Source of the DNA: Paludisphaera mucosa
GTDB taxonomy: Bacteria; Planctomycetota; Planctomycetia; Isosphaerales; Isosphaeraceae
DNA: 64,000 nucleotides
Direction of reading: 5' to 3'
Assembly: GCF_029589435.1 (NCBI RefSeq)
Contig: NZ_JARRAG010000006.1
Location: forward strand, 1-64,000
The first letter of the stretch is position 1, and each line of letters opens with the position of its first letter. The notes under the pieces are model-generated. The model was not told the DNA's origin. It made no database searches and saw only the letters and a list, made by a program, of their open reading frames with translations. This document shows positions 1 to 7,496 of the stretch, in pieces. The position numbers were made by a program, and so were the translations under genes.

Positions 1-138
1 CCTCTCGGTCTTCTCGTTCTTGAGCAGGCCGAGGGCCGCGCGTCGGACGACGCTGAGGTTGGCGTCCGCGAGGCCCGTCCGGACGCGGCAGCGGTCCTCG
101 CCGAAGGTCACGTCGAGCTGCCAGTGCAGCGAGTTCTC
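1..138 (-). pseudogene. ISAs1 transposase, C-terminal part (separated from its N-terminus)
   Basis: Read on the minus strand from 141, the frame gives IENSLHWQLDVTFGED and then RVRTGLADANLSVVRR. This is the typical C-terminal block of ISAs1-family DDE transposases, which follows the HWxIE glutamate motif. There is no start codon, and the frame continues past base 1 without a stop. The rest of the protein is encoded at 2684-3610. The part seen here begins exactly at the glutamate codon GAG (136-138), where the nested element is inserted. The separated fragment cannot make a functional transposase. Confidence 0.85.
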
Positions 139-232
139 GATGGGCCTGTCATACTGCCCTCCAGGTGACAAGTTGTGCGAGAGGGGGAGCGAGCCGCACT
201 GCCTCGACCCCCTCCGGATCGGATAGTCAAGA

Positions 233-2374
233 TCAATCGTCACGCGGCCCGGGCGTCCGCAATCGGGCCAGCTGCTCCTGATGATTCCAGAGTCGGGGAT
301 ATTCTTTCAAGCCCCGCAGCCGGTCCAGCTCGGTCGCGTCGATCCACACCGCCCAGGGGCCGCCACGCCCACCCGATTGGCGCGCGTGCAGCCAGCCTTT
401 CTTCCGCCAGCCGTGCAGCGTATACGGCGATAAGGCCAGGGTCTGCGCCAGGTCGTGCAACCACACCTCGCCCGACGACAGGGCGCCCGCCGCCGCCGAG
501 CGCGGCACGCGCGGCCTCAGCTCAATCTCATGGAGCAGCCGTCGTACAATCCCGCCCGTGAAACGGGTCGCCCGCTTCGGCGGCCGAAATCCTTCCCGGT
601 CGAGGATCGTCGCGATCGCGTTCGGCGTCTCTCCCCGACCATGCAGAGCCGCGAGTCGCCCTGACAGCGGTTTCCATTGCTGTTGCTTTTTATATCCGAA
701 GACTTCCCGCCGCAGCATCCGCTGCCGCACCGCACCTCCGGCCCATTCGACACGCACTACGACATGATCATCTTCTGAATTCAAGGTCAGCACCACCCGT
801 TCGATGAGGAGCCTCACGATCCGGCGGCGGTCCGCGTTCGTCGTCGTGGGGGCATGCCACAAGGTCGGGATTTCCGCGGCCAGGCGGCGGATCCGCTCCC
901 GGTCGGCCTCGCCCAAGACTCGCGGCTGCGCCCCGAGGAAACGATCGAAGCCCTCCTCCACCTTTCGGACGGCCTGCAACGCCTCGTCCCAGCGACGCTC
1001 CAGGGTGCGGCCCACCAGGCGATTCTCCGGCTCGCAGGCGTGGTATTGCCGGCCGGCCCGATCGGCCTCGTATCGCGCCCGCTCGACTCGACGCTCCCAG
1101 TCGCGGATCGCTTGACGTCGCTGCTCATCGACCCGTGACGCGGCCTCGAGGCTGGCGTCCAGGGCCGCCGGTTGCAAAGCCTCCAGGACCTCCTGGGCGA
1201 CCCAGGCCTCGGCGTCGACCACCGAGACCGATTGACGCAGGGGTAGGCCATAGTCCGATCGCAGCGTGCTGCAGACGTACGTGGGACGACCGCCGCTCCG
1301 CCTGTAGCGCACGTACATCCGACGCCCGCATCGCCCGCACCGCACGACCCCCGCCAGCAAGGCGGCCCCGTCCCGCACCGCGCCGGGCGACTCGACTCGC
1401 GACCGGTTCGCCGCCATCCGCCTCCGGTTCGTCTCGAACCGGTCCCAACTGATATACGCCGGGTGCCGGTCCCTCAGGAAGACCTGGCACTCCTCCGCCG
1501 CCAGCCCGCTCTCGCGGCCGCTATTGGGACTGCCGGGCTTCCGGCGTCGCGGATCGACCGGACGAAACCCATAGATGTAAGCACCGGCATAGATGGGGTG
1601 CCGGAGGATGTGGCGGACGGTCTCCCGGCATGGGGGACGCCAGTCCAGCTCCCCGCGATCGGGCCCGCCGCGACGACGCAACGGCATCCGGATTCCGCAG
1701 GCGATCAGGTGGCGGAGGACGCCATGAACCGTCCCCTGCCGATCGAACTGATCGAAGACCGTGCGGACGATCTCCTGGACCTGCTCGTCCGGGTCCAGGG
1801 CGACCTCTCCGGCCGGCGACTTCACATACCCGACCGGGACGGCGACCACCAACTCCCCGCGACGGGCCTTGTTCAATTTCCCCTGATACATCCTCTGTTT
1901 GAGGACGTGCAGCTCGGCTTCATTCATCATGCCGGTCAGCCCGAGCAGGAGGCGATCCGAGTATTCGGTCGGGTCGTAGATCGATTCCGCGTCGGCGAGC
2001 AGGACGCGGAATCGGGCGCAGAGATCGATCAAGTGGTGCCAATCCTTGCAGGATCGGGCCAGCCGGCTCATCTCCAGGCCGAGGATCAACCCCACCCGAT
2101 CCAGGGCGACCTCGGCGAGCAACCGCTGGAACCCCGCCCGGCCTTCGATCGATCGCCCGCTCTTGCCCAGGTCGTCGTCGATCACGTGGACCTGGGGCCG
2201 CGACCATCCCAGGTCGACGGCCCGGTCGGTCAAGGCGTATTGGCGGGCCGTGGATTCCTGATGCTCGAGGACCTGCTGCGGCGTCGACTGCCGGATGTAG
2301 ACGACGGCGGACCGGTCGAGATGCCAGGACTTGAGCTTGGGGGACGCTGGCGCGTCATGCGAGAGGGTGGTCAT
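233..2374 (-). CDS. Large serine recombinase (resolvase N-terminal + recombinase + zinc ribbon)
   Basis: Predicted site-specific DNA recombinase of 713 residues. The N-terminal resolvase domain (about 20-165) has the nucleophile serine in VVYIRQSTPQQ and the downstream motif LEMSRLARS. The recombinase domain follows (about 180-290, GYVKSP...RHILRHPIYAGAY). Next come a zinc beta-ribbon with a CxxC pair (VVRCGRCGRRMYVR), a charged coiled-coil region and, near the C-terminus, a MerR-like helix-turn-helix (LAQTLALSPYTLHGWRKKGW). ATG at 2374 (MTTLSHDA) is chosen over one 7 codons upstream because the resolvase fold starts soon after. It is the only long gene of the nested element and probably catalyses its integration and excision. 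The frame is intact, so it may be active. Confidence 0.9.
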   Translation of the reverse strand: MTTLSHDAPASPKLKSWHLDRSAVVYIRQSTPQQVLEHQESTARQYALTDRAVDLGWSRPQVHVIDDDLGKSGRSIEGRAGFQRLLAEVALDRVGLILGLEMSRLARSCKDWHHLIDLCARFRVLLADAESIYDPTEYSDRLLLGLTGMMNEAELHVLKQRMYQGKLNKARRGELVVAVPVGYVKSPAGEVALDPDEQVQEIVRTVFDQFDRQGTVHGVLRHLIACGIRMPLRRRGGPDRGELDWRPPCRETVRHILRHPIYAGAYIYGFRPVDPRRRKPGSPNSGRESGLAAEECQVFLRDRHPAYISWDRFETNRRRMAANRSRVESPGAVRDGAALLAGVVRCGRCGRRMYVRYRRSGGRPTYVCSTLRSDYGLPLRQSVSVVDAEAWVAQEVLEALQPAALDASLEAASRVDEQRRQAIRDWERRVERARYEADRAGRQYHACEPENRLVGRTLERRWDEALQAVRKVEEGFDRFLGAQPRVLGEADRERIRRLAAEIPTLWHAPTTTNADRRRIVRLLIERVVLTLNSEDDHVVVRVEWAGGAVRQRMLRREVFGYKKQQQWKPLSGRLAALHGRGETPNAIATILDREGFRPPKRATRFTGGIVRRLLHEIELRPRVPRSAAAGALSSGEVWLHDLAQTLALSPYTLHGWRKKGWLHARQSGGRGGPWAVWIDATELDRLRGLKEYPRLWNHQEQLARLRTPGPRDD

Positions 2375-2551
2375 GACTCGCCTCCCCCGTCGCAACCGCG
2401 TCGGCGCCCAGGGGACGTGCGAGGAGTTCGGCGAGGAGGCGTTGGAGCCTCCGCCGACGATCCGGCGGGAGTTGGGCCCAGATCGCGGTCAGTGGGTCCG
2501 GCGGAGATGCCGTGGGCGGGGGGGGACGCAGTTGGATTCGCTGTCGAGCAT
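2355..2551 (-). pseudogene. Small ORF upstream of the recombinase, frameshifted at a G8/C8 tract
   Basis: A GGAGG sits about 8 bases before an ATG at 2551. The frame begins MLDSESNCVPP and, after the run of eight C on the coding strand (plus-strand G8, 2518-2525), continues in another frame as PPDPLTAIWAQLPPDRRRRL. That stretch ends at 2355, overlapping the recombinase start by about 20 bases. One extra C would make a single ORF of about 65 residues, rich in Pro at the front and basic/helical behind. Translational coupling to the recombinase is likely. It could be slippage-controlled, a decayed gene or a sequencing error. Function unknown. Confidence 0.4.
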
Positions 2552-2683
2552 GAGGTGCCTCCGTGGTCCTGAGAGCGGGTGTCGCTCCACGCGGCCAACG
2601 CCAACAGGGCGTCTACGGCGATGGTAATCGGCCCTTCCGACGGCGCACAAGCTGTCGCTTCGTGGGTCTTCTGGCCGGGGGAT

Positions 2684-3610
2684 CTCGATCCCCCAGTGGC
2701 CTCGCACGGCCTCGGCGAACGCCCGGGCGTCGAGGCGGCGGCTCAGGATGTAGTACCGCACCGCGTCGCTCGGCTTCCCGTCGCGCGTCGAGACGTTGAT
2801 CGCGACGCCGATCGCCGCCAGGCCGGGCCATCGCTCGCGGTCGGGGAGGTCGGCCGGGGCGTCGCAGACGTAGTAGGCCCGGTGGTCGGCCCGGCCGTGC
2901 CCCTTCTCCTTCGTCTCGTGCCGCGTCACGGCGACCGTGGCGAAGTCGTCCTCCATGTGCCCCAGGAAGTGGCCCTCGACCCCGCGGTGCAGCGTCGGCT
3001 GATTGTCCTTCACGGCCAGGACGTAGTCGGCCTTCCGATCGCGGATCGCCCCGGCGATCTCGACCTGGCAGCCCATCGCGTCGATCGTGACCAGGCAGCC
3101 CTCAAGCTCCAGGAGTTCGGGGATCGCCGTGATCTCGTTCGACTTCGCGTCGACGACCACCTGCCCTAGGCTCAGCCGGGCGTCCGTCGCCCAGGCCGAG
3201 ACCATGTAGATCGCCGACTTGCCCGAGGCCCGGTCGAAACTCCCGCGCAACGTCTTGCCGTCGATCGCCACGACCCGACCTGCGGTCGCCTCGTGGAGCG
3301 CGGCGATCCAGCCCAGCAGGCAGGCCTCGAAGGCCCTCGTGTCGAGCGCGCGGAAGATGGCGTTGAAGCGGTCGTGCAACGGGACCCCGGCGGAGAGGTC
3401 GAGGAACTTCGACAGCCAGTCGCGCCGCTCGCGGCCCCACAATGCGATGGAGACGAAGTCGTCGGCCCCGGCGACGACGGCGCAGACCGCGATGGCGACG
3501 ACGTTGATCAGCGGGTGCATAACCTTGCGCCGCCGCGGGTCGGCGAGGCTCGCGAAGTGGTCGTGGAGGCGTACGGAAGGGGGCGAGGGGTCGGGCTCGG
3601 GCGTCGGCAT
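2684..3610 (-). pseudogene. ISAs1-family transposase, N-terminal part, cut at the catalytic Glu codon
   Basis: DDE transposase. It starts at ATG 3610 (MPTPEPDPSPPSVRLHDHF) and shows the family landmarks: LADPRRRKVMHPL, the first Asp in AIDGKTLRGSFD, the second Asp in VTIDAMGCQ, then AVKDNQPTL, and the region ending RGHWGIE. After the GAG at 2684-2686 the frame passes into the nested element and runs on as unrelated residues to a stop at 2489. The missing C-terminal part is at 1-138. The product lacks the helix after the catalytic Glu and is expected to be inactive. An upstream ATG at 3694 adds 28 unrelated residues and is disfavoured. Confidence 0.85.
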
Positions 3611-3713
3611 GATCGATCCAGGACCTTGGGCGGCCCGCCCGCCGGGCTGCCGCCCGGCCATCGCGGGCCGATCCTCAAGATCTTCGCAGGTCACCCATCA
3701 TGGCGCAATCGCC

Positions 3714-4083
3714 CTGGGCGGCACCGCCGGTTCGCGAAGAATTCGGTCATATCGAAAATGTAATCGGTAAGAACGGGTCGAGTGTGAAGCCCCGGACGAA
3801 AACCGTCGACGTCGCCGGGAATCAGCCATGTCATTTCAGTAGGACCCCAGACCCTCCGTCCCATGGCTTGCCACCGACGCCAACTTCCATCGAAGCATGC
3901 CCTACCTTTGGGGACATAAGGTCCGAGAGCAACTGGCCAGCATCCATAAGCATGCACGCAATCAATATGGTCGCTTCGTGCAGGCTAACTCCCTTTCCCA
4001 TGTCCGACCGCTTGTCTCAAAAACGCTCGTTTTTGGGACAAGTTGCCGCATCATTATCCTTGTGTTTCTTCGGCACCCCTCCC
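3714..4083. other. Intergenic stretch with a strong hairpin
   Basis: No ORF here looks coding. The notable feature is a nearly perfect hairpin: arms 4011-4025 and 4028-4042 (14 of 15 pairs, 2-base loop), with A- and T-rich arms. It could serve as a terminator for the minus-strand gene that ends at 4084. Part of the sequence (about 3985-4042) recurs in degenerate form at 4804-4862. Confidence 0.5.
4011..4042 (-). terminator. Hairpin downstream of the SUKH-like gene
   Basis: Arms 4011-4025 and 4028-4042 match at 14 of 15 positions around a 2-base loop. It lies 42 bases beyond the stop of the minus-strand gene at 4084. The stem itself contains runs of A and T, and no clear separate U-tract follows, so terminator function is inferred. 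Confidence 0.4.
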
Positions 4084-5745: not shown

Positions 5746-6657
5746 TCACGCGGCCTCTTGGTCCTCGCCCGCCTTGCCCACCCGGAGCTGATCGAGCAGG
5801 GCAAGCAGCAACGGCTCGATTGCCTCGCTCGGGACGCCCGCCTTGCGGCTCACCTCGACGCGGAACCCCTGGGCCTTGAGCACGACCCGGACGGGGACCT
5901 TCGGTGCCTTCGGCTTGCCCTTCGGGGTTCGCTTGACACGGGCGGCGAGATCCTTCTGGCCAAGCCCCTGGCGGACGGTCTCCTCGGCGAGGCGGACTTG
6001 CTCGGTCGGATCCTCGAGCTTGGCGATCTCGTGCGCGGCCGAGGGCGCCAGCCCCCCCTGCTCCACCCGATCCTGGATCTCGGCCGGGAGCTTCAGGAGC
6101 GAAAGCGCGCGAACGATCGCGGTGCGCGAGACGGCCAACTCCTCGGACAGCTTCTCCTGGGTCCAACCCTGACGGTCCATCAGCGACCGGAACGCGCGGG
6201 CCTGCTCCATCGGCGAGAGGTCCTCGCGCAGGCAATTCTCCACGAGTTGGAGGGCGAGCTTCTCCTTGTCGCCGAGGGTGCCATCGCGGATCACGGCCCG
6301 TATGGTCGCCAGGCCGGCGAGCTGGGCGGCCCTCCAGCGGCGCTCCCCGAGTATGATTACGTAAGCCCCCCTGCCCTCGTCCCAACGCACCTGGATGGGC
6401 TGGAGCTGGCCGCGAGTCTTAAGCGACTCGGCCAGCCGCTCGAGCGCCTCGGGATCGAACTCGGTGCGTGGCTGATCGGTGTCCGGTTGGATGCGGCCCG
6501 TCTCGATGACCGCTACGTCCAGGGCCCGGGTCACCCCGGCGTGCTTACCGACCCGCTCTCGGGCCTGCGGCGCCGGGGCGGCGGGGCCGCGCTCGAAGAG
6601 GCCGATCGACTCGCGCAGGTTCCCCGAGATTGCCTTCAGCTCTTCGGACTTGCTCAC
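5746..6657 (-). CDS. parB: ParB-family partition protein
   Basis: 303 residues. The N-terminal ParB/Spo0J nuclease-like CTP-binding domain (about 45-150) shows QPRTEFDPEALERLAESLK, the LQPIQVR segment and the signature GERRWRAAQLAG. It is followed by ENCLREDLSPMEQARAF and a helix-turn-helix (WTQEKLSEELAVSRTAIVRAL). The C-terminal part is basic, then ends in a short dimerisation-like region. The start at 6657 overlaps the parA stop by 4 bases (ATGA), so the two genes are translationally coupled. ParB should bind centromere sites and, with ParA, segregate the replicon. Likely targets are the three palindromes upstream of parA. Confidence 0.93.
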   Translation of the reverse strand: MSKSEELKAISGNLRESIGLFERGPAAPAPQARERVGKHAGVTRALDVAVIETGRIQPDTDQPRTEFDPEALERLAESLKTRGQLQPIQVRWDEGRGAYVIILGERRWRAAQLAGLATIRAVIRDGTLGDKEKLALQLVENCLREDLSPMEQARAFRSLMDRQGWTQEKLSEELAVSRTAIVRALSLLKLPAEIQDRVEQGGLAPSAAHEIAKLEDPTEQVRLAEETVRQGLGQKDLAARVKRTPKGKPKAPKVPVRVVLKAQGFRVEVSRKAGVPSEAIEPLLLALLDQLRVGKAGEDQEAA

Positions 6658-7496
6658 GCCGCGACTCCTTCCGCGATGGGGGACGTGCCGGCGGCCCGCG
6701 CCAGCAACTCCTCGGCCACGGCCAGGACGGCCTTAGCCGCCGCGCTCTTCGGCTTGTATTGGTGCACCGTCTTCCGGTGGGCGACGGCCTCGGGGAATTC
6801 CGGCCGCATCGGCAGGCGTGCGGCGAAGACCTGCTCCCCGTACGCGGCGCGGAGGCTCGCCTCGTACTCGCGGTGGAGGGCTCTGGCGGGCGCGACCATC
6901 GTCAACAGGTAGCCGAGCAACTCGACGGGATACCCTTCGCCGCGGACGGCGTCCAGCGAGTCTAGGACGTCCGCGATCCCCTGGGCGCCGTAGTCTTCCG
7001 GCTGGAGTGGGACCAGTAGCGCGTCAGAGGCGGCGAGGGCGGCGAAGGAGGCGCCGTACAGATTCGGTGGCGGGTCAACGAGGACGATATCGAAGTCGTC
7101 CTCAACCTGGGCGAGGAAGTCGCGCAGCGATTCCCGCGACTCACGAGGCAGGAGCAACGGGCGGGAGTCGTTCCACTCGGCCGCGGCACGGCTCCCCGGC
7201 AGGATTGACACGCCGGCCAGCGGCGTCGGCCGGATCACCTGATCGGGGTAGGGGAGGCGGCCCGCGAAGATCTCGGCAATCGTCTCCTCAGGGGGCATCG
7301 CCCTGGTTCCGGCGGGGCCGAACCACCCCTGGGAAAGCGAGGCTTGAGGATCGGCGTCAACGACGAGCACCCTCCGCCCCAGCGGCCCAGCGAGGGCCCC
7401 CGAGAGGTGGTGGGTGCAGGTCGTCTTCCCGACGCCGCCCTTCTGGTTTAATAGAGTCACGACGAGCACGGGACGCCTCCCATGTGCGGACCGCAC
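6654..7496 (-). CDS. parA: ParA-family partition ATPase
   Basis: About 280 residues. The deviant Walker A box is LLNQKGGVGKTTCTHHLSGAL. The switch I-type segment RRVLVVDADPQASLSQGWFG and the Walker B region (DIVLVDPPPNLYGAS) follow in normal order. The start is either GTG at 7496 or an internal GTG at 7469. The first lies inside a palindrome, so the leader may be autoregulated. There is little room for an N-terminal HTH, so it is a short ParA that would rely on ParB (type Ib-like) for site binding. It forms an operon with parB and sits just left of the replication gene. Confidence 0.93.
   Translation of the reverse strand: MRSAHGRRPVLVVTLLNQKGGVGKTTCTHHLSGALAGPLGRRVLVVDADPQASLSQGWFGPAGTRAMPPEETIAEIFAGRLPYPDQVIRPTPLAGVSILPGSRAAAEWNDSRPLLLPRESRESLRDFLAQVEDDFDIVLVDPPPNLYGASFAALAASDALLVPLQPEDYGAQGIADVLDSLDAVRGEGYPVELLGYLLTMVAPARALHREYEASLRAAYGEQVFAARLPMRPEFPEAVAHRKTVHQYKPKSAAAKAVLAVAEELLARAAGTSPIAEGVAA

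Follow-up and report, generated by a model that had tools for sequence, protein, structure and literature searches.

A compact serine-recombinase element inserted at the presumed catalytic glutamate codon of an ISAs1 transposase, with relatives in other transposase genes

Why should one mobile element sit inside the transposase gene of another, exactly at a single codon? The question is raised by the first 3.7 kb of the window, by which we mean the whole stretch analysed here (64,000 nucleotides of Paludisphaera mucosa, contig NZ_JARRAG010000006.1, positions 1 to 64,000). These 3.7 kb are a single copy of the insertion sequence (IS) ISAs1, cut once by a 2,548-bp element whose one large gene encodes a serine recombinase. 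Our answer, to which we give a probability of about 0.87, is that the element is a transposon with a serine recombinase as its single recombinase, whose circular form recombined at the GA of the codon (GAA or GAG) for the third acidic residue, a Glu, of a DDE transposase, and that the host transposase was broken in the process.

The ISAs1 reading is broken at HWGI-E-NSLHW and the transposase is otherwise intact, its N-terminal half ending in GHWGIE and its C-terminal half beginning with ENSLHW. The hexamer CTCGAT (ATCGAG on the minus strand) is found at both borders, at 136-141 and 2684-2689. The contig (94,982 bp; C6 of our genome set entry G000) circularises, the C-terminal half goes on from the contig's other end until it reaches a normal stop, and the whole ISAs1 is bracketed by the inverted repeats CAGGGCGATTGCGCCAT and CAGGGCGATTGCACCAT. 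It is the normal stop across the closed contig and the inverted repeats on both sides that identify this as one ISAs1 cut once. The same genome has a relative, with 88% identity across the N half, in which HWGIENSLHW is read through without interruption. A preliminary description of this DNA had the gene cut between HWGIE and NSLHW with halves that rejoin, and both the flanks and the intact relative agree with it. It also reported ATCGAG on both sides, which is true of the window, but Glu-type insertions in general share only GA (usually GAG). The extra ATC is partly chance, as seen in locus L077, where the left side reads GTGGAG and the right side ATCGAG; it goes beyond chance once relatives are included.

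Relatives of the recombinase (E <= 1e-40) were searched for in 45 genomes of the same family, including that of the window, and are present in 21 of them. Among planctomycete insertions with both junctions read, the window included and one-sided readings left out, 22 of 26 have their core in the codon for the third acidic residue (Glu) of a DDE transposase. The hosts are of ISAs1, IS4, IS5, IS630 and IS701 type, with family names taken from Pfam results where given and otherwise from characteristic motifs. In the window's own clade, the insertions read on both sides (L075, L076, L077, L083, L089, L093 and that of the window) all have the Glu codon of ISAs1, HW.[IV]-E-N, as their site, seven of seven, and L078 of the same clade has this site on its single readable side. 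The Glu codon is also the site of L079, whose host gene is of IS630 type, and of L080, whose host is of IS4 type, and Singulisphaera acidiphila (G037, matched to NC_019892.1) has four identical copies, three at an IS5-type Glu codon and one elsewhere. The planctomycete insertions are in sense relative to the transposase. Close relatives are uncommon across the whole phylum, being found in 5 of 392 evenly drawn genomes, the window's own included, at E <= 1e-150 with two candidates scored per genome. In L083 and L078 the recombinase genes are broken by other DNA or lie beside further recombinase fragments, forming a nest of such elements.

In genome G040 a 2,516-bp element is present in 13 identical copies with sharp ends. 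In ten of these the core GAG coincides with the Glu codon of a DDE transposase, and the genes hit are seven in number: one Tn5-like gene, two IS4-type genes (one of them in two copies), IS701-type genes, and the chimeric host of L061. The latter combines an IS4-type N half on the left with an IS701-type C half on the right, as expected from recombination between two copies of the element. In L058 the N half of the IS701-type host is reduced to a stump. The three remaining copies are found in a TPR gene, in a stretch whose match to RibD_C is weak (E 0.0056, short of the curated cut-off) and in a stretch without family. The same genome also contains empty sites: one uninterrupted stretch equals the healed L057 site in 143 of 143 bases, a second is identical over 121 bases, and three have 98% identity to the healed L066 site. 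The core, common to both ends of the element, is there only once, which means that it is single and that nothing was lost at the site. The healed junction that the preliminary description proposed to look for is thus found, for a relative, as natural sites with one core copy. Seven of the ten distinct sites in G040 are at the Glu codon, and the binomial chance of at least seven is 1.7e-13, assuming even 3,000 target codons in the genome. At the level of sequence, comparison thus establishes the exact position, the single core and the independent insertion of an identical element in unrelated transposase genes.

The shared part of the core is short. GA is common to the Glu-type sites, the sole exception being the left side of L080, in its first base only. 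In L115 the third bases differ (GAG on the left, GAA on the right), and therefore GA is the likely crossover dinucleotide. In the 13 sites of clades B and E, the bases enriched besides the core are T-23, T-21, C-12, T-9, A+4, T+10, G+17, T+19, A+21, A+22 and T+31.

Is the core codon that of the catalytic Glu? When the target of L056 is aligned to Tn5 transposase (1MUS), the core codon falls on E326, which we take to be a catalytic residue, within Y319-R322-E326-K333. Pfam positions, counted back from the end of the match with no gaps assumed, place the core Glu at 163-165 of DDE_Tnp_1 in ISAs1 (L006, L093, L115, L117), IS4-type (L063, L064), IS5-type (L071, L072) and IS701-type (L057, L067) hosts, and at 123-124 of DDE_3 in the IS630-type L079 and L114. 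By profile homology, the core Glu of ISAs1 is presumed to be the putative catalytic residue. In sequence searches of the PDB, ISAs1 found no relative among DDE-type transposases; one search gave nothing and another gave two weak, chance-like matches.

Insertions of the same kind are found outside the planctomycetes. With both sides read, Streptomyces L107 and L109 lie at Glu codons of IS5-type genes, L115 and L117 at those of ISAs1, and Belnapia L114 at that of an IS630-type gene; in IS1380-type hosts the matching codon was found on one readable side. Other lineages have other codons. In clade C, a sister clade (L002 from the window's own genome, L051, L069 and L082), all four insertions are in IS3-type orfB, with a core AA in the codon of a conserved Lys that follows the Glu at a distance of seven residues; the host of L002 is backed by Pfam rve. 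Rhizobial and other alphaproteobacterial relatives lie mostly in the IstB gene of IS21, where the core, also GA, falls in the codon of a conserved Asp, and the IstB host of L135 is confirmed by Pfam. In a tree of 50 recombinases this mainly-IstB clade stands apart from the mostly DDE-hitting clades, with L132, read on one side, as an IS5-like exception inside it. From 552 matching plasmid records 14 were hand-picked, mostly from the top of 40 listed, and their targets were read by eye from motifs: eight are at a DDE Glu codon (six two-sided, with L216 and L219 one-sided), three in IstB, one in IS66 tnpB, one between IS66 tnpB and tnpC, and one was not resolved. One plasmid target is also annotated as IS701 family. 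All six two-sided plasmid insertions are antisense to the transposase, in contrast to the sense orientation in planctomycetes. Two viral contigs carry relatives. On the Nostoc plasmid of L221, the recombinase follows a gene annotated as Y4bD/Y4pK family protein and stands between parts annotated as reverse transcriptase.

Several observations weigh against the proposed reading. The Glu codon is not a rule for the superfamily as a whole, given the Lys of clade C and the Asp of alphaproteobacterial IstB. Four of the 26 planctomycete insertions (L055, L059, L062 and L073) are in non-transposase DNA. Relatives at unrelated sites had been named in the preliminary description as evidence against its inference that the Glu codon serves as the bacterial attachment site (attB); the inference is largely upheld and reaches further than that description proposed, holding for the window clade and for the same codon in IS4-, IS5-, IS630- and IS701-type genes, as a strong but not an absolute specificity. 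In L080 the left core is AAG and agrees only given one changed base. The recombinase copies of L075, L078, L083 and L089 are decayed or interrupted, and the excised joint, sought in the window's own assembly with up to two mismatches, was not found there. Of the 80 loci kept from 194 candidates, 33 could be assigned to an IS gene from one side or both and 13 duplicate other loci of the set; 34, many of them only motif-scanned, have no target assigned. Loci without target or weakly read include clade D (L081, L085-L087), L084, L088, L104, L074 and Nostoc L221, and the flanks of L104, with 59% identity to the window's recombinase, contain no transposase. Neither did structure help to place the Glu of ISAs1: AlphaFold models of four sequences had a mean pLDDT (predicted local distance difference test) of 58, too poor for the purpose, and were discarded, as was a fold search of the PDB with these models, which returned unrelated proteins and nothing at E <= 0.001. 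An hhalign comparison of ISAs1 with the IS4-type targets gave a probability of 0.1, which is not significant and was not used as proof.

Could the pattern arise without aim? A serine transposon of loose specificity, similar to Tn4451 or Tn5397, might insert widely and survive in insertion sequences because these are dispensable and abundant. The GA core does resemble that of Tn4451, and the off-target insertions have little beyond GAG in common. Such survival would predict insertions anywhere in the transposase gene, however, and three intact genes each offer 50-52 GAG/CTC triplets; for seven distinct G040 genes all to be hit at one codon, the chance is 1.3e-12 if each were one of 50. We consider this explanation improbable. 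Even less credit goes to a single ancestral insertion carried along passively with its host IS, so that the targeting would be only apparent. Some copies are indeed duplicates, as L063 and L065, and likewise L057 and L060, have a left flank of about 1.1 kb or more in common. Passive spread is contradicted, however, by identical elements whose flanks are unrelated, in a Tn5-like gene, in two further genes of IS4 type and in several of IS701 type, and by the seven distinct G040 genes.

The alternative that we take most seriously, although we still think it unlikely, is an enzyme that reads a DNA pattern unconnected with catalysis, which lies at the Glu codon by coincidence. Among the enriched bases of the 13 clade B and E sites are some that lie about 21 bp from the core on each side (T-23, T-21, T+19, A+21, A+22), and the four off-target sites match at 9 of 20 of these five chosen positions against an expected share of 0.169 (nominal P 0.003). 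Three of the four are among the 13 sites used for choosing the positions and shifted controls reach 7 of 20, so the test is weak and partly circular, and the match is a hint only. Moreover, this alternative is in part the same claim made at the DNA level: in IS4-type targets the outer enriched bases fall in the codons for Tyr and Lys of Y-R-E-K, which lie seven codons before and after that for Glu.

If insertion at the Glu codon is aimed, as we think, the steps would be as follows. The element would be excised as a circle, and the recombinase, recognising the DNA around the Glu codon directly, would join this circle to the target by a crossover at GA, the first two bases of the codon; each insertion would break the host transposase. 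Conservation of the motif inside each IS family would make it a plentiful, evolutionarily stable and dispensable target. That the element excises, that it is active and that there is a benefit are inferences.

The circle would also complete a gene. In 14 joints built from the two ends, the right end provides a start codon, ATG in 11 and GTG in three (L076, L077, L089), 16-17 bp before the end of the core. It is preceded by GGAGG in 12 of 14, by GGACGG in L079 and by a more distant GGAG in L069. The frame is open through a conserved segment (..ALLALAAW..), giving an open reading frame (ORF) of 106-114 amino acids in 13 of the 14 and of 64 in L082. In the window, its stop overlaps the recombinase start (ATGA), and translation of this circle-only gene would be coupled to that of the recombinase. 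All 14 joints have a run of 6-9 C after the conserved segment, followed by a second conserved frame (about W..LP..RR..L..L) that is in frame with the start codon only in L076 and L002. Before the C run, third positions hold a share of 0.35-0.40 of the differences; by codon position, there are 61, 31 and 34 differences in the first 20 codons of clade A, and 41, 13 and 43 in 15 codons around LLxLA. These counts offer at most weak evidence of constraint at the protein level; what carries the case for the ORF is a start codon that stays fixed and a frame that stays open. No family in NCBIfam or PHROGs matched it. The excised circle may thus produce a small protein, perhaps with slippage at the C run.

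Taken further, compact serine transposons in several phyla might parasitise other transposons through the imprint that DDE catalysis leaves in DNA. The Tyr, Glu and Lys codons, seven apart, would form a near-symmetric attB that lets one enzyme use unrelated IS families; the gene split across the element's own attachment site (attP) would be a switch of state, complete only in the circle, with the C run as a second, frame-based switch; and the elements would be natural suppressors of insertion sequences. Because the off-target support for a DNA motif is partly circular, we put this forward tentatively, as a possibility somewhat short of an even chance.

The kind of element is already known, from large serine recombinase transposons, from recombinases aimed at conserved genes and from group II introns in IS genes. 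Tn4451 and Tn5397 are likewise moved by a large serine recombinase (TnpX and TndX), with a core that we take to be GA, as here. They differ from the window-type elements, which are about 2.5 kb long, with no cargo seen and a strong aim at transposase codons. The circle joint is reported to form a promoter for tnpX (title of a work cited in PMC13023037), whereas the joint described here would supply a start codon. DUF4368 is present in 63% of a multi-targeting recombinase clade that includes TndX-like ones, according to one report (PMC10083194), so that not every member has it; the window's recombinase has no DUF4368 in Pfam at E <= 0.001. The same report describes site-specific large serine recombinases with one conserved coding site as attB, such as a Mg-chelatase/protease gene or a prolyl isomerase (PMC10083194). 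Compared with what is described there, a single enzyme here crosses gene families at the corresponding codon, and its targets are transposases. Homing introns and inteins also target the most conserved codons of their host genes, including active-site codons, but here there is no splicing and the host gene is lost. An RmInt1-type group II intron, likewise a mobile element inside an IS transposase gene, lies in that of ISRm2011-2 and is said to limit its spread (PMC4238363). Those introns are retroelements able to splice from RNA, in contrast to the DNA recombination without splicing proposed here. IS607 serine transposons have a DNA-binding domain N-terminal to a small serine recombinase, an architecture not seen in the window's 713-residue protein, in which the Resolvase domain is at residues 23-174. 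Searches of titles and the beginnings of abstracts, in a collection without most subscription papers, listed no serine recombinase described as aiming at the active-site codons of transposases. The aim at transposase codons, its breadth and the joint ORF appear to be new, and the whole looks like parasitism of one mobile element on another, of a form that has drawn little notice, in several bacterial phyla and transposase families.

If this is true, a family of recombinases has settled, across phyla, on catalytic codons in a class of mobile genes that is among the commonest. It would account for some broken transposases and suggests a natural brake on insertion sequences. It also offers recombinases with a testable attB logic, so that how serine recombinases choose and change their targets could be tested directly.

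Features of the insertion at the start of the window (positions in the window)
Feature	Position	Strand	Basis or remark
Serine-recombinase element, 2,548 bp including one core copy	136..2683	-	The 13 identical copies of a relative define ends of this kind
Left core GAG, Glu codon of the ISAs1 N half; GA the likely crossover dinucleotide	2684..2686	-	GA from L115 (GAG left, GAA right)
Right core GAG, in frame with the ISAs1 C half	136..138	-	
Large serine recombinase, 713 amino acids (Resolvase, Recombinase, Zn_ribbon_recom)	233..2374	-	Pfam
Outward-facing GGAGG (158-162) and ATG (150-152), start of the putative circle-joint ORF, 17 bp from core end	150..162	-	
Body of the putative small ORF, start codon only in the predicted excised circle; stop overlaps recombinase ATG (ATGA)	2371..2683	-	
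Run of 8 C (minus strand) in the small ORF, between two conserved reading frames	2518..2525	-	
ISAs1 transposase, N-terminal half up to the Glu codon	2684..3610	-	
ISAs1 transposase, C-terminal half from the Glu codon; goes on at the far end of contig C6	1..138	-	
ISAs1 inverted repeat, N-half side	3700..3716	-	

Elsewhere in the window's own genome (G000:C2 near 2531582; L005 2421-2442), two different ISAs1 N-terminal halves stand head to head exactly at the Glu-codon core. The junction reads GGGGGATC-TC-GATGTCC, with no element there, and looks like a scar of recombinase action. The window itself is probably part of a plasmid, as contig C6 closes at its ends into a circle and has ORFs (window 5746-7496) that we take, from their motifs, to be ParA- and ParB-like. 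Between 11001 and 17000 of the window, G+C is 0.73-0.79 per kb, against 0.56-0.74 elsewhere.

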